NCBI GenBank assembly: GCA_008729055.1
Contig: SDUX01000001.1
Coordinates: 496,001-560,000, forward strand
Origin: Pyropia haitanensis
Lineage: Eukaryota; Rhodophyta; Bangiophyceae; Bangiales; Bangiaceae
DNA: 64,000 bases
Direction of reading: 5' to 3'
This document shows, piece by piece, positions 48,639 through 62,412 of this stretch (positions are counted from its first letter, which is position 1; each line of letters opens with the position of its first letter). The position numbers and the translations under genes are program-made. Under the pieces are notes generated by a model. It saw only the letters and a list, made by a program, of their open reading frames with translations, searched no databases and was not told the origin of the DNA.

Positions 48639-48682
48639 AGCTGGTCCCCTGACGCTTAGAGGCCAGATCCCAGGGGACCAGG
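48639..48682. other. Hairpin-forming inverted repeat just outside the transposon pair
   Basis: CTGGTCCCCTG and CAGGGGACCAG form 11-bp arms around a ~22-base loop. TGGTCCCCT occurs again in direct orientation on the far side of the transposon pair at about 59045. The copy on the right suggests that the target itself lay inside an older palindromic element. Confidence 0.55.
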
Positions 48683-48727
48683 GGGGGGGCCGATTCCAAG
48701 CAATCCAGGGGGGGGGCCGATTCCAAG
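48681..48727. repeat. Direct repeat at the insertion target
   Basis: The segment G9-CCGATTCCAAG-CAATCCA occurs, then G9-CCGATTCCAAG again, where the element begins. The interrupted second unit continues as ATTCCAAG-CAATCCAG9 at 59021-59044 beyond the right end. The pre-insertion site was therefore two ~27-bp direct repeats. Confidence 0.75.
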
Positions 48728-49089
48728 GGCTCCCGTCCCATGCACACACGAGGGACCGGTTTCATCCCACCAATAGATTTCGAGGTGGAGACGATCCGTG
48801 GTGTAACTGATGGATGGGAGCGCAAGCGCTCGACCGTTCTCAGCCGCAGCCTGTATGTAGCGGCGCACAGCGCTCGGGCTCCAAACAGCATCAGCCAACA
48901 GAACCCTTGGGATACACGACTTACAGCTCCCTTGCAGCGTTGTCAAGCTTTCTGAAAGATGGCATGGAAGCTGAACACGTTGCTGACGCACGGTGCTTTC
49001 TTGAAAGTCAAGACTCTTTAGTAGCAACACAAGCAGACGACTGCTGTTGCGCACTTGTCGTGACAGATGGTCAACTCTTTGAGAACTTG

Positions 49090-50625
49090 GCCTGCCGGCT
49101 GGCGGCGCCGCCCCCCCCCCCACGACGGCGGCATGTTGTCGCTGATGGCGGCGGCGCCTGCCAGCTGGCGGCGGTGCACCCCCCCCCCCGACGGCGGCGT
49201 ATTGCTGGTGTTGGCGGCGGCGGCTACCGGCTGGCGGCCGTGCTCCCCCCCCCGCCGACGGCGCCAAGATGTCGCTGTTGGCGGCGGCGCCTGCCAGCTG
49301 CCGGCGGTGCCCCCCCCCCGCCGACGGCGGCATGTTGTCGCTGATGGCGGCGGCGCCTGCCAGCTGGCGGCGGTGCACCTCCCCCCCCGACGGCGGCGTA
49401 TTGCTGGTGTTGGCGGCGGCGGCTACCGGCTGGCGGCTGTGCTCCCCCCCCCGCCGACGGCGCCAAGATGTCCCTGTTGGCGGCGGCGCCTGCCAGCTGG
49501 CGGCGGTGCCCCCCCCTCCCCGACGGCGACGTGTTGCTGGTGTTGACGGCGGCGGCTGCCGGCTGGCGGCGGTGCGCCCCGCCCCCCGACGGCGGCAAGT
49601 TGTCGCTGTTGGCGGCGCCCACCGGCTGGCACCACCGCTACCCCCCCGACGGCGGCAAGTTGTCGCCGTGGGCGGCGGCCGCTCGCTGGCGGTGCTGCGC
49701 CCCCCCTCACGGCGGCAAGTCGTCGCCGTGGGCGGCGGCCGCTCGCTGGCGTCGCTGCCCCCCCCCCGACGGCGGCAAGTTGTCGCCGTGGGCGGTGCCC
49801 GCCGGCTGGCGGCACTGCCCTCCCCCCCGACGGCGGCAACTTGTCGCTGTTGGCGGCGCCCGCCGGCTGGCACCACCGCCACCCCCCCGACGGCGGCAAC
49901 TTGTCGCTGTTGGCGGCGCCCGCCGGCTGGCACCACCGCCACCCCCCCGACGGCCGCAAGTTGTTGTCGTGGGCGGCGGCCGCCGGCTGGCGGTGCTACC
50001 CCCCCCCAGACGGTGGCAAGTCGTCGCCGTGGGCGGCGGCCGCTGGCTGGCGGTCCTGCCCCCCCCCGACGGCGGCAACTTGTCGCTGTTGGCGGCGCCC
50101 GCCGGCTGGCACCGCCGCCCCCCCCCGACGGCCGCAAGTTGTCGCCGTGGGCAGCGGCCGCTGGCTGGCGGTGCTGCCCCCCCCCCGACGGCGGCAACTT
50201 GTCGCTGTTGGCGGCGGCCGCTCGCTGGCGGTGCTGCCCCCCCCCCGACGGTGGCAAGTTGTCGCCGTGGGCGGTGGTCGCCGGCTGATGCGCCGCCTCT
50301 GCTGATGTTGGCGGCATGTTGCTGCTGCTGGCGTCGGCGCTTGTTTTTTTTTTTCCTGTCTGGGCGCATCCTGTTTGCAGGCGGCGCCCCCCGTCCCCCG
50401 ACGGCGGCAAGTCGTCGCCGTTGGCGGTGCCCGCCGGCTGGCACCACCGCCACCCCCCCGACGGCGGCAACATGTCGCCGTTGGCGGTGGTCGCCGGCTG
50501 GCGTCGCCGCCCCCCTCCCGACGGCGGCAAGTTGTCGCCGTGGGCGGCGGCCGCTGGCTGGGGGCACTGCCCCCCCCCGACGGCGGCAAGTTGTCGCCGT
50601 GGGCGGTGGTCGCCGGCTGATGCGC
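49090..50625. repeat. ~60-bp minisatellite, transposon copy 1
   Basis: About 23 units, mostly 60 bp (variants 65-67 bp at the left end, where a three-unit higher-order period of ~200 bp is visible), interrupted at about 50290-50385 by a T-tract segment that is repeated again at 50626-50695. Each unit has a C run followed by GACGGCGGCAA-TTGTCGCCGT, an imperfect 10-bp-arm inverted repeat. Confidence 0.9.
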
Positions 50626-50992
50626 CGCCTCTGCTGAGGTTCGCGGCATGTTGCTGCTGCTGGCGTCGGCGGTTTTTTTTTTTTTTTTCCTATCTCTTTG
50701 CCGGTCACTACGCTCATATACGGCGCTGCTCGCACCGGCTCTCTCCTCGGTCCCCCGCCCGCGCACACACACACACACACCTATCTCGGTGCCCCGCGTG
50801 CAGGGCAGACCCACACCACACTACAGCCTCAGCTCGCCCGTCCTCGCGTCCGTCCTTGCCCGGCCTCGCCGTGTAGCCAGCGCGCTGCCCCCGTGCCCCC
50901 GCCGTCAGTGGCGGTACGCCACTCGCCGACCGCCAAGGTGCCCGCCGGCTTGATCCGCTCCGCTCAATCCGCACCCCCCAGTGCCGCCCGTT

Positions 50993-51213
50993 GATTGGCC
51001 AGATCGATGGCAACACATTTACCATTGGCCAGATTGATGGCAACACTTTTACCATTAACCAGATCGATGGCAACACTTTTACCATTGGCCAGATCGATGG
51101 CAACACTTTTACCATTGGCCAGATCGATGGCAACACTTTTACCATTGGCCAGATCGATGGCAACACTTTTACCATTGGCCAGATCGATGGCAACACTTTT
51201 ACCATTGGCCAGT
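50993..51213. repeat. 30-bp minisatellite, transposon copy 1
   Basis: Seven tandem 30-bp units of the form AGATCGATGGCAACACTTTT + ACCATTGGCC with only four substitutions among them. The unit contains ATCGAT and TTGGCCA...TGGCAA, a short inverted repeat. It is open in one frame as the decapeptide IGQIDGNTFT, but there is no sign this is expressed. Confidence 0.95.
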
Positions 51214-51499
51214 CGCGTGCCGCACCGTCAACCGCCCCCGGCGTGGCGCCCGCGCCATAGACTGGCATGGCCCCGCCACCCAACGGGGCGCCCCGCCCCG
51301 CCCGGCCCCCAGGGCTGCCCTAGTGCCCCACACCAAGCGGGGCCGACGTAGGGTAAGCCCCGTCTGTAGCGGCCCCGCCTACGGGCGTCCCGCCGTGGTC
51401 GGCGGCATCGTCCGCGTCGTCCGCGCTGCGCGTAGCACCGCCCACGTCCGCTGACACCCCAGCGTCGGGGGGGGCAGATGCAGTGCCCTGCGCGCCCGC

Positions 51500-52375
51500 C
51501 AACAACCACCACCGCCACCGTGTCGAGGTGGTGGTGCGCGGGGCGGGCACACCCCCCACTCGCCGCCACCCCCAACCCACCCACCACCACCACCTGGGTG
51601 CGGCGGCGTGTGGGGGGAGCTGGTCTCCCGCCGCCCCACCACCACCACTGCCACCATGTCGGGTTGGTGGTGTGGAGGGTGGGCGCAGTGGCCTCTCGCC
51701 GCCACCCGCCGCCCAGCCACCACCACCAGCTGGGTGCGGCGGCGTCCGGGGGGAGCTGGTCTCCCGCCGCACCACCACCACCACTGCCACCGTGCCGGGT
51801 TGGTGGTGCACCGGGCGGGCACACCCCCCGATCGCCGCCACCCCCCACCCACCCACCACCACCAGCTCTGCGGGGCGGCGTGCGCGGGGGCTCGGCCTGG
51901 CGCCGCCCCACAACCACCACTGCCACCGTGTCGAGGTGGTGGTGTGGAAAGTGGGCGCAGTGGTCTCTCGCCGCCACCCCCCACTCACGCACCACCACCA
52001 GCTGGGTGCGGCGGCGTGCGCGGGGGAGTTTGTTAGGGGCCGCTCTACCACCACCACTGCCACCGTGTCGGGGTGGTGGTGTGGACGGCGGGCACAATCC
52101 CCCCTCGCCGCAACACCCCACCCACCCACCACCACCAGCTGGGCGCGGCGGCGTGCGCGGGGGCTCGGCCTGGCGCCGCCCCACCACCACCGCTGCCACC
52201 GTGTCGGGGTGGTGGTGTCGAGGGCGGGCACAAGCCCCACTCGCCGCCTCCCCCCACCCACCCACCGACCATCTGCAGCTGGGTGCGGCGGTGTGTGGGG
52301 GGAGTTGGCTTCCCGCCGCACCACCACCACCACTGCCACCGTGTCGGGCACCTCCCCCACTCGCCGACACCCCGC
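51500..52375. repeat. 135-bp minisatellite, transposon copy 1
   Basis: About seven units. The anchor CTGCCACCGTGTCG recurs near 51515, 51650, 51785, 51920, 52055, 52194 and 52333. Each unit has CCACCACCA upstream and GTGGTGGTG downstream of the anchor, forming 8-9-bp arms. The last unit is truncated. Confidence 0.9.
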
Positions 52376-52463
52376 ACCCACCCACCACCATCAGCTGGGC
52401 GCGGCGGCGCGTGGAAGCAGCTGGCCTCCCCCCGCATGCAAGCGCCTAGGGACGATCTCCACC

Positions 52464-53120
52464 ATGCCGCACGCGTGGTGCATATGCGCACCGATCTCCG
52501 CCGCTATCGATCGCTGTCCTTGCTGTTCATGTGCACTGAGTGCAGGAACCCCACCACTGACACAATTCGACCCCGACCTAGGACACTTGACTACCACGTG
52601 CCCCCTGACGCCACCTGCGACAAAAAGTGCGACACGGGCACACAGTGATGCACAGTCGAGTCGCAAGAATAGCCGGCTGCCTACGTATCTCTCCACCGCT
52701 CCCCGCTCGCTCACCTCTGGCAGCAACCCTAATCACTACCCCAGACAGTCGTTCCCTCCCCTCCAAAGCGGGCCCATCCAGTCGCCGTGGAGCAAGCCCA
52801 CTCGCGCGAGTACTCGCAGCGACGCGACAGCTGCAAAACGCAACGAGAGCGCAATGACGGCACACGAGAGGGTAATACGTGTACACGCGGGACGAGAAGT
52901 CGTGACACTCGCGGCGCGCACGAGCCACGGCCTCTGGCAGCAGGAAACGACGGAAACGCGTGCCTCGCAAGCGAAGTGCGCAATTAATGAAATAAGAGAA
53001 CAAATTAAAAATAAACTTGACAAGGAAGATAAATGGCTCCTGACGAATATGATGAGAACGCACACTATAAGCTATAGCGGAAACGAATGCAACGTGTACA
53101 CATTGTGTAGCAATCAATAG
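52464..53120 (+). CDS. Unknown 218-codon frame inside transposon copy 1
   Basis: Starts at ATG 52464; upstream the frame stays open through the 135-bp repeats. The N-terminal part is Cys-rich (CICAPIS, CPCCSC), the middle Ser/Thr/Pro-rich, and the C-terminus charged and helix-like (AINEIREQIKNKLDKEDKW). Identical in the second copy. A 206-codon frame overlaps on the opposite strand (52578-53198). Neither matches a transposase that I know. The charged C-terminus makes the + strand frame the better candidate, but it may be non-coding. Confidence 0.25.
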   Translation: MPHAWCICAPISAAIDRCPCCSCALSAGTPPLTQFDPDLGHLTTTCPLTPPATKSATRAHSDAQSSRKNSRLPTYLSTAPRSLTSGSNPNHYPRQSFPPLQSGPIQSPWSKPTRASTRSDATAAKRNESAMTAHERVIRVHAGREVVTLAARTSHGLWQQETTETRASQAKCAINEIREQIKNKLDKEDKWLLTNMMRTHTISYSGNECNVYTLCSNQ

Positions 53121-53869
53121 CGGCAGACAAGAAGACGAATTGGAACCAGGCGACCGTCGCACTAGCACAGGCCAGTTCTGCCAAGAGGAAGCCGCCACCA
53201 GTCACATATCCGCTCTCAGCGTGACTGTGTATTCCTTGTAGAAGCCGTCAAGGCTGACTTGATTAAGTGTGAATGGTGCCAGTCTCGAGGTCGGCGCACT
53301 ACCGCCAGATTGGCCTGCTCACGACCGCCGCACTCGAAAGCTAATCAAGCCAGCAATGGCTTCGGAGCTGTGGCCAGGCCATCTTGAATACACGATGAAC
53401 GGTTGGAGTCTTGTTGTTTGCTGATTGGTAAGGTACAGGAACGCGCGGTTCTTCACAGTCATCATTGCCGCTGCGTACAATCATCGCGTCCATCCCCTTG
53501 CGAGTGATATCCAACGAGTCTCTGAGACAGTCGGAAAGCCGCTGACGCAATCAAAAAGGGCACTTCAATCGGTCTCGCCCCCATCAGGGACGCAAATGTA
53601 AACCGTAGCTGGATCGCCCTTATTCAACGGCTGATTTATCGCTAATCACGTAATAAACGAGTTGTTTGCTTCGTTTTGCATCGTTTAAGTACACAAATAG
53701 CGGTATCTAGGGGAAATAGCAAAAATTAGAGGAAATTTAAGAAACATTAGTAAAAGTTATGAAACACAAGAAAAGATTAGGTAAATGTGAACTTTCTCGG
53801 CGTGTCAATCAAGTTTCAAAACAGACCCAATTCAAAAAAAAATTCTCGTGTGTGCATGGGACGGGAGCC

Positions 53870-53875
53870 TCCAAG
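53870..53875. other. 6-bp spacer TCCAAG at the transposon-transposon junction
   Basis: Abutting inverted repeats ...GGGAGCC and GGCTCCC... are separated by TCCAAG, the last six bases of the 8-bp flanking repeat ATTCCAAG. The junction is a near-perfect 56-bp palindrome. Confidence 0.95.
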
Positions 53876-54237
53876 GGCTCCCGTCCCATGCACACACGAG
53901 GGACCGGTTTCATCCCACCAATAGATTTCGAGGTGGAGACGATCCGTGGTGTAACTGATGGATGGGAGCGCAAGCGCTCGACCGTTCTCAGCCGCAGCCT
54001 GTATGTAGCGGCGCACAGCGCTCGGGCTCCAAACAGCATCAGCCAACAGAACCCTTGGGATACACGACTTACAGCTCCCTTGCAGCGTTGTCAAGCTTTC
54101 TGAAAGATGGCATGGAAGCTGAACACGTTGCTGACGCACGGTGCTTTCTTGAAAGTCAAGACTCTTTAGTAGCAACACAAGCAGACGACTGCTGTTGCGC
54201 ACTTGTCGTGACAGATGGTCAACTCTTTGAGAACTTG

Positions 54238-55776
54238 GCCTGCCGGCTGGCGGCGCCGCCCCCCCCCCCCACGACGGCGGCATGTTGTCGCTGATGGCGG
54301 CGGCGCCTGCCAGCTGGCGGCGGTGCACCCCCCCCCCCGACGGCGGCGTATTGCTGGTGTTGGCGGCGGCGGCTACCGGCTGGCGGCCGTGCTCCCCCCC
54401 CCGCCGACGGCGCCAAGATGTCGCTGTTGGCGGCGGCGCCTGCCAGCTGCCGGCGGTGCCCCCCCCCCCGCCGACGGCGGCATGTTGTCGCTGATGGCGG
54501 CGGCGCCTGCCAGCTGGCGGCGGTGCACCTCCCCCCCCGACGGCGGCGTATTGCTGGTGTTGGCGGCGGCGGCTACCGGCTGGCGGCTGTGCTCCCCCCC
54601 CCGCCGACGGCGCCAAGATGTCCCTGTTGGCGGCGGCGCCTGCCAGCTGGCGGCGGTGCCCCCCCCTCCCCGACGGCGACGTGTTGCTGGTGTTGACGGC
54701 GGCGGCTGCCGGCTGGCGGCGGTGCGCCCCGCCCCCCGACGGCGGCAAGTTGTCGCTGTTGGCGGCGCCCACCGGCTGGCACCACCGCTACCCCCCCGAC
54801 GGCGGCAAGTTGTCGCCGTGGGCGGCGGCCGCTCGCTGGCGGTGCTGCGCCCCCCCTCACGGCGGCAAGTCGTCGCCGTGGGCGGCGGCCGCTCGCTGGC
54901 GTCGCTGCCCCCCCCCCGACGGCGGCAAGTTGTCGCCGTGGGCGGTGCCCGCCGGCTGGCGGCACTGCCCTCCCCCCCGACGGCGGCAACTTGTCGCTGT
55001 TGGCGGCGCCCGCCGGCTGGCACCACCGCCACCCCCCCGACGGCGGCAACTTGTCGCTGTTGGCGGCGCCCGCCGGCTGGCACCACCGCCACCCCCCCGA
55101 CGGCCGCAAGTTGTTGTCGTGGGCGGCGGCCGCCGGCTGGCGGTGCTACCCCCCCCCAGACGGTGGCAAGTCGTCGCCGTGGGCGGCGGCCGCTGGCTGG
55201 CGGTCCTGCCCCCCCCCGACGGCGGCAACTTGTCGCTGTTGGCGGCGCCCGCCGGCTGGCACCGCCGCCCCCCCCCCGACGGCCGCAAGTTGTCGCCGTG
55301 GGCAGCGGCCGCTGGCTGGCGGTGCTGCCCCCCCCCCGACGGCGGCAACTTGTCGCTGTTGGCGGCGGCCGCTCGCTGGCGGTGCTGCCCCCCCCCCGAC
55401 GGTGGCAAGTTGTCGCCGTGGGCGGTGGTCGCCGGCTGATGCGCCGCCTCTGCTGATGTTGGCGGCATGTTGCTGCTGCTGGCGTCGGCGCTTGTTTTTT
55501 TTTTTCCTGTCTGGGCGCATCCTGTTTGCAGGCGGCGCCCCCCGTCCCCCGACGGCGGCAAGTCGTCGCCGTTGGCGGTGCCCGCCGGCTGGCACCACCG
55601 CCACCCCCCCGACGGCGGCAACATGTCGCCGTTGGCGGTGGTCGCCGGCTGGCGTCGCCGCCCCCCTCCCGACGGCGGCAAGTTGTCGCCGTGGGCGGCG
55701 GCCGCTGGCTGGGGGCACTGCCCCCCCCCGACGGCGGCAAGTTGTCGCCGTGGGCGGTGGTCGCCGGCTGATGCGC
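54238..55776. repeat. ~60-bp minisatellite, transposon copy 2
   Basis: Same array as in copy 1, unit for unit, apart from single-base changes in three C runs. Equal unit number in both copies shows that the duplication is too recent for the array to have drifted. Confidence 0.9.
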
Positions 55777-56143
55777 CGCCTCTGCTGAGGTTCGCGGCAT
55801 GTTGCTGCTGCTGGCGTCGGCGGTTTTTTTTTTTTTTTTCCTATCTCTTTGCCGGTCACTACGCTCATATACGGCGCTGCTCGCACCGGCTCTCTCCTCG
55901 GTCCCCCGCCCGCGCACACACACACACACACCTATCTCGGTGCCCCGCGTGCAGGGCAGACCCACACCACACTACAGCCTCAGCTCGCCCGTCCTCGCGT
56001 CCGTCCTTGCCCGGCCTCGCCGTGTAGCCAGCGCGCTGCCCCCGTGCCCCCGCCGTCAGTGGCGGTACGCCACTCGCCGACCGCCAAGGTGCCCGCCGGC
56101 TTGATCCGCTCCGCTCAATCCGCACCCCCCAGTGCCGCCCGTT

Positions 56144-56364
56144 GATTGGCCAGATCGATGGCAACACATTTACCATTGGCCAGATTGATGGCAACACTTT
56201 TACCATTAACCAGATCGATGGCAACACTTTTACCATTGGCCAGATCGATGGCAACACTTTTACCATTGGCCAGATCGATGGCAACACTTTTACCATTGGC
56301 CAGATCGATGGCAACACTTTTACCATTGGCCAGATCGATGGCAACACTTTTACCATTGGCCAGT
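56144..56364. repeat. 30-bp minisatellite, transposon copy 2
   Basis: Seven units, with the same variant units in the same order as copy 1. Confidence 0.95.
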
Positions 56365-56650
56365 CGCGTGCCGCACCGTCAACCGCCCCCGGCGTGGCGC
56401 CCGCGCCATAGACTGGCATGGCCCCGCCACCCAACGGGGCGCCCCGCCCCGCCCGGCCCCCAGGGCTGCCCTAGTGCCCCACACCAAGCGGGGCCGACGT
56501 AGGGTAAGCCCCGTCTGTAGCGGCCCCGCCTACGGGCGTCCCGCCGTGGTCGGCGGCATCGTCCGCGTCGTCCGCGCTGCGCGTAGCACCGCCCACGTCC
56601 GCTGACACCCCAGCGTCGGGGGGGGCAGATGCAGTGCCCTGCGCGCCCGC

Positions 56651-57526
56651 CAACAACCACCACCGCCACCGTGTCGAGGTGGTGGTGCGCGGGGCGGGCA
56701 CACCCCCCACTCGCCGCCACCCCCAACCCACCCACCACCACCACCTGGGTGCGGCGGCGTGTGGGGGGAGCTGGTCTCCCGCCGCCCCACCACCACCACT
56801 GCCACCATGTCGGGTTGGTGGTGTGGAGGGTGGGCGCAGTGGCCTCTCGCCGCCACCCGCCGCCCAGCCACCACCACCAGCTGGGTGCGGCGGCGTCCGG
56901 GGGGAGCTGGTCTCCCGCCGCACCACCACCACCACTGCCACCGTGCCGGGTTGGTGGTGCACCGGGCGGGCACACCCCCCGATCGCCGCCACCCCCCACC
57001 CACCCACCACCACCAGCTCTGCGGGGCGGCGTGCGCGGGGGCTCGGCCTGGCGCCGCCCCACAACCACCACTGCCACCGTGTCGAGGTGGTGGTGTGGAA
57101 AGTGGGCGCAGTGGTCTCTCGCCGCCACCCCCCACTCACGCACCACCACCAGCTGGGTGCGGCGGCGTGCGCGGGGGAGTTTGTTAGGGGCCGCTCTACC
57201 ACCACCACTGCCACCGTGTCGGGGTGGTGGTGTGGACGGCGGGCACAATCCCCCCTCGCCGCAACACCCCACCCACCCACCACCACCAGCTGGGCGCGGC
57301 GGCGTGCGCGGGGGCTCGGCCTGGCGCCGCCCCACCACCACCGCTGCCACCGTGTCGGGGTGGTGGTGTCGAGGGCGGGCACAAGCCCCACTCGCCGCCT
57401 CCCCCCACCCACCCACCGACCATCTGCAGCTGGGTGCGGCGGTGTGTGGGGGGAGTTGGCTTCCCGCCGCACCACCACCACCACTGCCACCGTGTCGGGC
57501 ACCTCCCCCACTCGCCGACACCCCGC
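56651..57526. repeat. 135-bp minisatellite, transposon copy 2
   Basis: Same seven units and truncation as copy 1. Confidence 0.9.
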
Positions 57527-57614
57527 ACCCACCCACCACCATCAGCTGGGCGCGGCGGCGCGTGGAAGCAGCTGGCCTCCCCCCGCATGCAAGCGCCTAG
57601 GGACGATCTCCACC

Positions 57615-58271
57615 ATGCCGCACGCGTGGTGCATATGCGCACCGATCTCCGCCGCTATCGATCGCTGTCCTTGCTGTTCATGTGCACTGAGTGCAGGAAC
57701 CCCACCACTGACACAATTCGACCCCGACCTAGGACACTTGACTACCACGTGCCCCCTGACGCCACCTGCGACAAAAAGTGCGACACGGGCACACAGTGAT
57801 GCACAGTCGAGTCGCAAGAATAGCCGGCTGCCTACGTATCTCTCCACCGCTCCCCGCTCGCTCACCTCTGGCAGCAACCCTAATCACTACCCCAGACAGT
57901 CGTTCCCTCCCCTCCAAAGCGGGCCCATCCAGTCGCCGTGGAGCAAGCCCACTCGCGCGAGTACTCGCAGCGACGCGACAGCTGCAAAACGCAACGAGAG
58001 CGCAATGACGGCACACGAGAGGGTAATACGTGTACACGCGGGACGAGAAGTCGTGACACTCGCGGCGCGCACGAGCCACGGCCTCTGGCAGCAGGAAACG
58101 ACGGAAACGCGTGCCTCGCAAGCGAAGTGCGCAATTAATGAAATAAGAGAACAAATTAAAAATAAACTTGACAAGGAAGATAAATGGCTCCTGACGAATA
58201 TGATGAGAACGCACACTATAAGCTATAGCGGAAACGAATGCAACGTGTACACATTGTGTAGCAATCAATAG
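57615..58271 (+). CDS. Unknown 218-codon frame inside transposon copy 2
   Basis: Identical in sequence and position to the frame in copy 1, so it gives no independent evidence for coding. No recognised domain. Confidence 0.25.
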   Translation: MPHAWCICAPISAAIDRCPCCSCALSAGTPPLTQFDPDLGHLTTTCPLTPPATKSATRAHSDAQSSRKNSRLPTYLSTAPRSLTSGSNPNHYPRQSFPPLQSGPIQSPWSKPTRASTRSDATAAKRNESAMTAHERVIRVHAGREVVTLAARTSHGLWQQETTETRASQAKCAINEIREQIKNKLDKEDKWLLTNMMRTHTISYSGNECNVYTLCSNQ

Positions 58272-59079
58272 CGGCAGACAAGAAGACGAATTGGAACCAG
58301 GCGACCGTCGCACTAGCACAGGCCAGTTCTGCCAAGAGGAAGCCGCCACCAGTCACATATCCGCTCTCAGCGTGACTGTGTATTCCTTGTAGAAGCCGTC
58401 AAGGCTGACTTGATTAAGTGTGAATGGTGCCAGTCTCGAGGTCGGCGCACTACCGCCAGATTGGCCTGCTCACGACCGCCGCACTCGAAAGCTAATCAAG
58501 CCAGCAATGGCTTCGGAGCTGTGGCCAGGCCATCTTGAATACACGATGAACGGTTGGAGTCTTGTTGTTTGCTGATTGGTAAGGTACAGGAACGCGCGGT
58601 TCTTCACAGTCATCATTGCCGCTGCGTACAATCATCGCGTCCATCCCCTTGCGAGTGATATCCAACGAGTCTCTGAGACAGTCGGAAAGCCGCTGACGCA
58701 ATCAAAAAGGGCACTTCAATCGGTCTCGCCCCCATCAGGGACGCAAATGTAAACCGTAGCTGGATCGCCCTTATTCAACGGCTGATTTATCGCTAATCAC
58801 GTAATAAACGAGTTGTTTGCTTCGTTTTGCATCGTTTAAGTACACAAATAGCGGTATCTAGGGGAAATAGCAAAAATTAGAGGAAATTTAAGAAACATTA
58901 GTAAAAGTTATGAAACACAAGAAAAGATTAGGTAAATGTGAACTTTCTCGGCGTGTCAATCAAGTTTCAAAACAGACCCAATTCAAAAAAAAATTCTCGT
59001 GTGTGCATGGGACGGGAGCCATTCCAAGCAATCCAGGGGGGGGGTGGTCCCCTCAGGCCGAGTGAATCCAGCTTCCACG

Positions 59080-59193: not shown

Positions 59194-59259
59194 CGGCGGA
59201 CGCCGCAGCGCTGCTCGCCCGCCGCCGCTACCCGACCGCCGTGTTTGCCTGCGGGCGTC

Positions 59260-60756
59260 ATGGTCCCCCCTCCCCCCCCACTCCCGCCGTTACCGCGGCT
59301 GCACTGCCTGGCCTTTGCTGCTGCCCCGTCGCGGGTGTCTCCCTCACTCGGCTCCGAGGCGGGCCCGGCGGTCTGCCGCGGGCCGCGGCGGCCCGCGGGC
59401 GGCGGCGCCCGGCGGCGGCGGCGCCCCCCTCCCCAACCGACGATGGCCTCGTCGCCGTCCCCCTCACCGCCAGCCGGGTCGCCCGCCGCGGGCGGCGCGG
59501 TCGGTGGCAAGGCGGCGCCGTCGCGCACGTCGGCGGCGCTGCCGCCCGCCCACGCGCCGGCGCCTGTCGAGTCAGTGGGCGGCCAGCGGGTGGCCAACAA
59601 GACCGAGTACATCTGCGCGCTTCGCGCGACGCTGGGCCTGGACGGTGGCGGCGGCTGGGCGGCGCAGCCCGCCGCCCTCGCTGCGACCGACCTCTTTTGG
59701 CAGTCCATGCAGGCCGAGGCGCGGGCGGCGGCGGCCAAGGAGCCGCTCCTCGCGTCCTTCCTTTTCAACTCGGTGCTCAATCACCGGACGCTGGGCAGCG
59801 CGCTCGCGTTCCACTTGGCGAACAAGCTCGCGTCGGCGGCCATGCCCGCTACCCTTCTCGTCGAGGTGTGCCGCGAGGCGCTCGCGGGGGGGGCCGCCGC
59901 CGCGTCGGGCCACCCGGCGCTCGGCTGGGCGACCGCCCTCGGCGGCGACCCGGGCGCGGCGGCCGCCGCGGCGTCGGCTGCCGCGGCCGCGGCGGCGATG
60001 GACCGGACGCTCCGGCTGGACCTGCTGGCGGTGATGGAGCGGGACCCCGCGTGCACGCAGCTCATCGACGCGCTGCTCTACTTCAAGGGCTTCCACGCGC
60101 TGCAGGCGCACCGCGTCGCACACGCTCTGTGGACGACCGACCGGCGGCCGCTGGCCTACTTCCTCCAGTCCCAGGTCAGTAAGCGGCTGCAGGTGGACGT
60201 GCACCCCGCGGCGGTGGTTGGCGCGGGCGCGTTTTGGGACCACGCGACGGGGCTGGTCATTGGCGAGACCGCCGTCCTTGGCAACAACGTGTCGCTGCTG
60301 CACTCGGTGACGCTCGGCGGGAGTGGAAAGAAGCACGGCGTGCGGCACCCGCGGCTGGGGGATGGGGTGCTGGTGGGGGCGGGCGCCACCCTCCTCGGGC
60401 CCGTCAAGGTGGGCGCGGGCGCCCAGGTGGGCGCGTGCTCGCTGGTGCTCGAGGACGTGGCGCCACACGTGACGGTCGTGGGCGTGCCGGCCAAGGTGGT
60501 GGGCGTGCCGGGCGTGGCCGTGCCGGCGCTGCACATGCGCCACGAGCGGTGTGTGGAGGCCGAGGCGCAGCTGGCGAGCTTGGTCGTTCAAGGCAACGGG
60601 GCGGGGGCAGCGGGGAACGAGGCGACCAACCCGGGCGGGAACGGCGCAACGTCGGGGGGGAACGGCGCAACGTTGGGGGGGAACGGCGCGACGCCGGGCG
60701 GGAATGGGGCTGCGCCAGCGGGGCGCGCGGAGCCGCCGGAAGGGGGATATCTCTGA
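59260..60756 (+). CDS. Serine O-acetyltransferase
   Basis: Makes O-acetylserine from serine and acetyl-CoA, the first step of cysteine synthesis. The N-terminal helical domain (FWQSMQAEARAAAAKEPLLAS, SVLNHRTLGSALAFHLANKL) is followed by LLYFKGFHALQAHRVAHALW and the left-handed beta-helix core with VDVHPAAVVGAGAFWDHATG, LVIGETAVLGNNVSLLHSVT, LGGSGKKHGVRHPRLGDGVL and VPAKVVG. Catalytic His/Asp residues in VDVHP and DHATG are present. The first in-frame ATG (59260) adds a Pro/Arg-rich possible plastid transit peptide; a second ATG at 59443 would give a 437-residue form. The C-terminus is unusual: after the beta-helix it carries four GGNGATx heptapeptides in tandem. It lacks introns. The transposon pair lies just upstream and may alter its promoter. 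Confidence 0.93.
   Translation: MVPPPPPLPPLPRLHCLAFAAAPSRVSPSLGSEAGPAVCRGPRRPAGGGARRRRRPPPQPTMASSPSPSPPAGSPAAGGAVGGKAAPSRTSAALPPAHAPAPVESVGGQRVANKTEYICALRATLGLDGGGGWAAQPAALAATDLFWQSMQAEARAAAAKEPLLASFLFNSVLNHRTLGSALAFHLANKLASAAMPATLLVEVCREALAGGAAAASGHPALGWATALGGDPGAAAAAASAAAAAAAMDRTLRLDLLAVMERDPACTQLIDALLYFKGFHALQAHRVAHALWTTDRRPLAYFLQSQVSKRLQVDVHPAAVVGAGAFWDHATGLVIGETAVLGNNVSLLHSVTLGGSGKKHGVRHPRLGDGVLVGAGATLLGPVKVGAGAQVGACSLVLEDVAPHVTVVGVPAKVVGVPGVAVPALHMRHERCVEAEAQLASLVVQGNGAGAAGNEATNPGGNGATSGGNGATLGGNGATPGGNGAAPAGRAEPPEGGYL
60640..60720 (+). repeat. 21-bp coding repeat at the serine acetyltransferase C-terminus
   Basis: Four imperfect copies of GGNGAAC-type 21-bp units encoding GGNGATS, GGNGATL, GGNGATP and GGNGAAP. 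The period keeps the frame. Confidence 0.85.
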
Positions 60757-61148: not shown

Positions 61149-62412
61149 CTATTTCGTAGGTTCTGGCTCATCCAGCCGACTCAACAGCGCCCACCCCCCC
61201 TCGCCCTCTTTCCACATGGTCACGCTGCTGTCGCCCGATGCGACGCCCAGCACCCCCCCCGCGGGCGTCCACGACACGCTCCACACGGGCGCCCCAAAGT
61301 CGGGCAGTTCCTTCTTCTCCCACGGACCGCCGCTGTCCCCCCGCGTCCACACCACCACCCGCTTGTCCTGCCCACCCGACGCGACTACGTCGCGGCCCGC
61401 GCCGAGCGCGGGAGCCCACGCAACGGAGCGCACCCACTCGCGGTGGGCCGCCAGTGGCGGCCCGTCGCGCGTCCACCCCCCGTCGGCGCCCCGCGTCCAC
61501 ACCTTGACGAGCGCGTCGCAGCCGCCCGTGACGATGCGCAGCGGCGGGAGGGCGCCGTCGGGCTCACCGAGGCCGCCAAACGTGGCGGGCGCAAACGACA
61601 CGGACGAGGCGCCAAGGGCGTGCGTCTGCGCACCCCCGTCGGCCGCATCCGACACGCGGACGTCCGCCCAGGTGCCGTCGGCAGGGTTGTGGGTGACGAT
61701 GGAGACGAACCCGTCCGACGACGCGCACGCAAACGCCAGGCCATACGCGGCGGGCGCAAACGCCACCGAATTGACCGACGACGCGTGCCAGCTGTACTCA
61801 TAGGCGCGGCGCCACGCACCTGTGCCAACGTCCTCCTTCCACAGGATGACGCGGCCGTCAAAGCCGGCGGACGCGAGGAGGCCCCCAAAGGAAGGGTGGG
61901 CCCACGACACTTGCCACACGGGACCGTCGTGGCCAACCAGCTCGGCAGATAGGGTGTGCTGAGGGGGGGAGCCACCGGTAGGGGAAAAGATACGGACAGT
62001 GCGGTCTGACGAGGCGGTCGCCAGTCGGAGGCCGTAGTAGTCGAGCTGGGAGTCATGCTGCCAGCAACAAAGTGGAGCATTGAAAGCACATCAGGATGTA
62101 CACAGGGGGAAGAATAAACAGACCGAGGACAACGCAAGACAGTGATGAAAACAACGATGGTATGAACAGAAAGTCAGAAGCCATCACCGCGCGAAAGCAT
62201 ACGAACGAAACACCAAACAGCACATCAATAGGCAATCAACAGCAGAAACAAGACAGGTACCGTTAAGACCTCTCCAGGCAGAGGGCACGACCAGACGTGC
62301 GCTGGCCCCGGCGAACAAGACGTACAATCATGTCGGCATGGCCGGTATCAATGGTCGTCTGTGGCAGCGCCGGCTCACGCTCCACCACCCCCGCAGGGGC
62401 AGCGGTCGCCAT
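61149..62412 (-). CDS. SEC13: SEC13 homologue, WD40 beta-propeller coat/nucleoporin (two exons)
   Basis: Exon 1 is 62326-62412 (29 codons ending TTIDTGHADMI) and exon 2 is 61149-62057 (starting HDSQLDYYGLRLATASSDRT); joined in phase they give 331 residues, the normal SEC13 length. The six WD repeats are recognisable: RTVRIF; GPVWQVSWAHPSFGGLLASA and GRVILW; SSVNSVAFAPAAYGLAFACA; SSVSFAPATFG, GGCDALVKVW; WVRSVAWAPALG and KRVVVW; PVWSVSWTPAGGVLGVASGD and VTMWKE. SEC13 pairs with SEC31 in COPII coats and with NUP proteins in the nuclear pore. The ATG lacks the C-rich leader seen in most other genes here. Confidence 0.95.
62058..62325 (-). other. Intron of SEC13
   Basis: 268 bp, donor GATT|GTACGT and acceptor TGCTGGCAG|CATGAC, phase 0. 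It is much more AT-rich than flanking exons. It splits the conserved HADMI-HD segment found at the N-terminus of SEC13 proteins, which makes the model secure. Confidence 0.93.

Follow-up and report, generated by a model that had tools for sequence, protein, structure and literature searches.

A 64,000-nucleotide stretch of the genome of the red alga Pyropia haitanensis (assembly GCA_008729055.1, contig SDUX01000001.1, positions 496,001 to 560,000 of the forward strand; hereafter the window) carries two copies of a transposon with terminal inverted repeats (TIRs), arranged head to tail between a single pair of target site duplications (TSDs). We analyzed this dimer together with its relatives across the genome, and the results suggest a transposon family that repeatedly builds head-to-tail arrays in situ, with six-base spacers between copies that hint, by analogy with some bacterial insertion sequences, at joining of the right end (RE) of the element to a point outside its left end (LE). 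The dimer is best read as an array of two copies of a TIR transposon that duplicates 8 bp of its target and is probably non-autonomous; its informative part is the six-of-eight, one-sided spacer, which an earlier, sequence-only reading of the window had left unused.

Head-to-tail arrays with locus-specific spacers

The genome survey covered 52.9 Mb in 136 contigs. Forty-two stretches around terminus matches, together with the window, represent 41 loci, and both ends of the insertion were readable at 37 (L014, L052, L053 and L055, each with one end only, were excluded). Ten of these 37 insertions are head-to-tail arrays of 2–12 copies each, 40 copies in total (window, 2; L015, 5; L016+L017, the C4 array, 12; L018, 4; L019, 3; L020, 2; L021, 5; L022, 2; L023, 3; L024, 2), and the other 27 are single copies (24 from the main set, the C1 copy, L051 and L054). 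Tandem dimers, which the sequence-only reading had regarded as uncommon, are therefore nothing of the kind in this genome. Nine of the arrays are built of a 1.3–1.4-kb relative, and the window array of the 5.1-kb family.

Each of the ten arrays is enclosed by one outer TSD matching at all eight positions. Inside, every unit ends flush at its RE, and at 28 of the 30 inner junctions the spacer that follows is exactly TSD bases 3–8 (in element orientation), the six bases on the LE side; neither the full 8-bp TSD nor the RE-side hexamer (TSD bases 1–6) serves as a spacer at any of the 30. Pattern searches of the genome allowing spacers of 0–30 bases returned 26 and 28 junctions, every one within the ten arrays. 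Spacers vary among loci and agree with the TSD of their own locus; for random hexamers, agreement with the local TSD at all ten loci would be vanishingly improbable, and the chance of all ten arrays using the same side would be approximately 0.002 if the side were random (two-sided, simple arithmetic). The 26 copies in eight of the nine short-family arrays are identical within their array, and the divergence between the first copy of each short-family array and its closest match at another locus is 0.07–2.2%; in the C4 array, up to 14 substitutions separate the copies (11 of 12 compared, the copy spanning two stretches being excluded). The match of the spacers to the TSD of their own locus indicates that the arrays formed where they now sit, after insertion, and the similarity of copies within arrays points to a local and recent origin.

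Origin of the junctions

The simplest single event that would produce such a junction is the joining of the exact RE 3' end to a point six bases outside LE, in the same strand sense. Our preferred reading, held with moderate confidence, attributes this joint to a transposase that links the flush RE with a position 6 nt beyond the LE of the same or a sister copy. A single copy would first insert by ordinary strand transfer, creating the 8-bp TSD. Transposase supplied in trans would then free the RE 3' end of the resident copy exactly at the element border, and the freed end would be joined to the strand of the same sense at a position six nucleotides beyond LE; RE would act as the donor and LE as the recipient. 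The target would most simply be the LE of the copy on the sister chromatid; alternatively, joining to the LE of the same copy would give a circle, which would recombine back into the resident copy. Repair of the joint would leave RE-(six LE-flanking bases)-LE, and longer arrays could arise through repeats of the joining step or through ordinary unequal exchange between identical units.

Cut-and-paste activity without copy-out could give the same head-to-tail order and the same local spacer, if staggered cuts at RE on one sister chromatid and at LE on the other (with the outer strand cut about 6 nt outside) were followed by end joining into a dimer. Alternative transposition of maize Ac is reported to create tandem duplications: as may be the case in the alga, a transposase that engages the ends of two distinct copies can produce such a duplication, and the abstracts of those reports mention no six-base, one-sided spacer (PMC3744419, PMC4270019). 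However, a symmetric cut should also leave RE-side or mixed spacers, and RE-side hexamers are absent from all 30 junctions. End joining is usually variable in length, and the fixed six-base length at 28 of 30 junctions disfavours it. We consider this route unlikely.

Crossing over out of register between the flanking TSDs, or slippage there during replication, would account for arrays that are local and nearly homogeneous, and could well explain the growth from two to 12 copies once a dimer exists; slippage has also been proposed for the CMITE arrays of corals (PMC2872659). As the founding step, however, it predicts a full 8-bp TSD between units and is contradicted by the 30 junctions: because the spacer is six bases rather than eight, and comes from the LE side, we judge a founding role for either process very improbable.

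Duplication or miscounting of copies by the assembly would be in keeping with the identity of copies within eight of the nine short-family arrays, the number of identical copies being prone to misassembly. Duplicating a unit in this way would not, however, make a six-base, one-sided, locus-specific joint at ten loci, and the C4 array has the internal differences described above; an artefact is thus a highly improbable source of the junctions. Insertion of a whole dimer or multimer made elsewhere fits the single TSD around each array, but it deserves almost no credence: a ready-made dimer or circle would bring a spacer foreign to its new site, and all ten arrays have the local TSD hexamer. Of the two origins that the sequence-only reading had offered for the window dimer, duplication after insertion thus stands and insertion of a ready-made dimer falls.

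Two further candidates were rejected. Worked through on paper, re-insertion of a second copy beside the first cannot reproduce the order of 8-, 6- and 8-base flanks with any 8-bp target, and coupling sequences of the tyrosine-recombinase type (as in Tn916) do not suit single copies that carry true 8-bp TSDs.

Comparison with known systems

The RE-(six bases)-LE joint would work like the joint of copy-out/paste-in elements, a likeness in function that implies no claim of membership. Two members of the bacterial IS256 family, IS256 and ISCth4, resemble the algal arrays in that RE and LE are brought together across roughly 6 bp that derive from a single flank; their spacers measure 6–8 bp for ISCth4 and 5, 6, 7 and 19 bp for IS256 (PMC7780238). 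As in the alga, the IS256 spacer falls short of the length of the direct repeat, and IS2 uses its right end exclusively as donor and its left end exclusively as recipient (PMC3299598). For IS911 and IS2, deletions in the sub-terminal DNA of the recipient end are described as altering spacer length (PMC7780238). Unlike the IS256 family, the algal element is eukaryotic and apparently non-autonomous, and it forms chromosomal arrays of up to 12 copies with a fixed spacer side and length in a genome where the family profile PF00872 has no match. Tandem dimers have reportedly been described for IS256 as well, going by the title of a 2002 paper by Prudhomme.

Among eukaryotic DDE transposons, KolobokP forms multimers at one site within one TSD, as the algal element does, and its excision loses 1–5 flanking bases one-sidedly, footprints that its authors liken to IS3/IS256 (PMC9587614). 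A long terminal direct repeat is common to KolobokP units, and their TSDs span 3–5 bp, whereas the algal arrays consist of complete TIR elements with six bases of an 8-bp TSD between them. Coral CMITEs, which are piggyBac-like miniature inverted-repeat transposable elements, likewise occur as tandem full-sized non-autonomous TIR elements, but they are about 100 bp long, have TTAA TSDs and were suggested to arise by slippage (PMC2872659). Six-of-eight or partial-TSD spacers are not mentioned in the available parts of either report (PMC9587614, PMC2872659). Among the matches listed in literature searches (mostly open literature) for tandemly arranged copies, multimers, circular forms and alternative transposition, there was no eukaryotic report of such spacers. 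The 34-base junction pattern was absent from the prokaryote genome contigs searched, and the 20-bp terminus from the viral contigs searched.

Several observations weigh against the joining of RE to a point outside LE. Two junctions, both among the diverged copies of the C4 array, have one extra base in the spacer (seven in all). For L018, L019 and L020, the nearest copy outside the array is about one substitution away, so at these loci the spacer is the one line of evidence for a local origin; in addition, the copy numbers of all arrays rest on the assembly. According to one report, spacer and TSD usually have the same length (PMC9587614), and either end of ISCth4 could serve as donor (5/8 vs 3/8 junctions; PMC7780238). 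Bacterial spacers vary in length, and those of ISCth4 also in donor side, whereas the algal arrays keep to six bases from one side. Finally, no transposase was linked to the element in the searches made, which included the search for an autonomous relative proposed in the sequence-only reading: a Pfam scan of four of the 19 unspliced open reading frames (ORFs) of at least 150 aa overlapping copy 1 of the window dimer, the basis for its presumed lack of a transposase, found no family, and the MULE PF10551 and IS256-type PF00872 profiles found no genome match, with positive controls.

Copies and families across the genome

A genome-wide search with the exact 25-bp terminus, which had been proposed as a check on the window dimer, recovered 70 copies (reversed control, 0). 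The 20-bp terminus with up to three mismatches matched 167 places (control, 6), of which 100 were listed individually and some of the remaining 67 are known from other searches; an autonomous element may be among the unlisted places. Two families, of 5.1 kb and 1.3–1.4 kb, have common termini and approximately 241 bp of left end, and their right ends differ past the TIR (40 of 153 candidates were scored in the genome search behind this comparison). The 5.1-kb family is rich in minisatellites.

The 25-bp TIRs and the fixed 8-bp TSD at dispersed sites are features of Class II TIR elements. Among the single copies, the TSD matches at all eight positions in 25 of 27, the exceptions being L031 (6/8) and L038 (1/8). 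The flanking octamers of L031 (C7:1708008-1709414) agree at bases 3–8 and differ at bases 1–2 (AT vs GA), the same two bases that are absent from the array spacers; this mismatch may be a repair scar beside RE, or chance. At L038 (C10:617720-619386), a TIR pair 1667 bp apart has unrelated flanks, and the pair perhaps represents the ends of two separate insertions.

The dimer and its surroundings

The description of the window dimer given in the sequence-only reading held up on inspection (Table 1): two same-orientation copies of a TIR transposon roughly 5.14 kb long, four ends that share the same 25-bp terminus, the full ATTCCAAG on the outer sides only, and a neighbouring direct repeat that allows the empty site to be reconstructed. 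The target lies within this 27-bp repeat. The spacer is the TSD lacking its first two bases. Three single-C differences in homopolymers had been noted between the units, and they proved to be the sole differences: unit 2 has three extra C in C runs, opposite positions 49111, 49310 and 50118 of unit 1. ATTCCAAG occurs three times in the window (48693, 48720, 59021), against a shuffle mean of 0.36, with none of 100 shuffles reaching three.

Table 1 Layout of the dimer (positions within the window)
Feature	Position	Strand	Details
Left 8-bp TSD copy (ATTCCAAG)	48720..48727	+	
Transposon copy 1, 5142 bp	48728..53869	+	LE1 48728-48752, RE1 53845-53869
Inner spacer TCCAAG, TSD bases 3–8, abutting LE	53870..53875	+	Six bases
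Transposon copy 2, 5145 bp	53876..59020	+	LE2 53876-53900, RE2 58996-59020
Right 8-bp TSD copy (ATTCCAAG)	59021..59028	+	
27-bp direct repeat at the target, gives the empty site	48681..48727	+	

Minisatellites make up much of the interior of copy 1 (49089-50686, 50994-51212 and 51505-52348; repeat units of about 60, 30 and 136 bp) and are repeated in copy 2. G+C content of the window is 74%. The dimer sits just upstream of an ORF (59245-60756, +) with the serine acetyltransferase domains PF06426 and PF00132, beyond which lies a WD40/SEC13-like ORF on the opposite strand (61149-61919, −). Among the best 120 of 545 matches to the SEC13-like ORF, the best organism-named relatives are red algae (Chondrus, Agarophyton, Purpureofilum and Rhodosorus; 54–58% identity), and a nearer EukProt entry reaches 75% identity across 49% of the query.

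Candidate transposases and partners

Profile searches found ten genome matches to KDZ PF18758 (nine above the cut-off) and 12 to hAT PF05699, and several of the KDZ-type and hAT-type transposase sequences are present as near-identical copies. Zisupton, a KDZ element, makes 8-bp TSDs (PMC12730594). Element termini were not found in the stretches around three of the ten KDZ matches (L046, L047, L050), and the best match around three of the 12 hAT matches (L048, L049, L056) was 16 of 23 terminal bases. The PF21787 profile gave no match, but its controls were silent too, which makes the result uninformative.

None of the candidate partners inspected proved autonomous. The 11.7-kb C1 copy (L011/L012, C1:751087-762785) is a 5.1-kb copy split by a 6.87-kb insert resembling a long terminal repeat (LTR) retrotransposon; the insert measures 6874 bp, with LTR-like ends of about 590 bp at 99.8% identity and a 5-bp duplication, GTTCC. 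L051–L055 are short-family copies, with both ends in the stretch for L051 and L054 and one end for L052, L053 and L055. L055 at first suggested a new interior, but its first 270 bases matched short-family right ends (40 of 90 candidates scored, with C11:1235366 among these unread). L014 (C4:416922 onward) belongs to the long family but has diverged, and the stretch read contains no right end for it; it adjoins a long ORF (L014 4489-7491, −), which may encode an exportin.

Discussion

In eukaryotes, TIR transposons are usually presented as cut-and-paste elements. The arrays described here raise the tentative idea, which we hold as possible rather than probable, that asymmetric copy-out is how a eukaryotic DDE family moves or, at the least, increases its copies in place, with an obligate RE donor, an obligate LE recipient and a joint lying 6 nt beyond LE; the arrays, which reach 12 copies, would be its record. 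Arrays that keep the chemistry of the reaction in their spacers would offer a natural test system for a kind of asymmetric transposition hitherto dissected in bacteria, and the six-base, LE-side, local rule leads to precise expectations about circular forms, about other strains and about the missing transposase. Furthermore, the arrays would show how a non-autonomous element can raise its copy number without occupying new sites.

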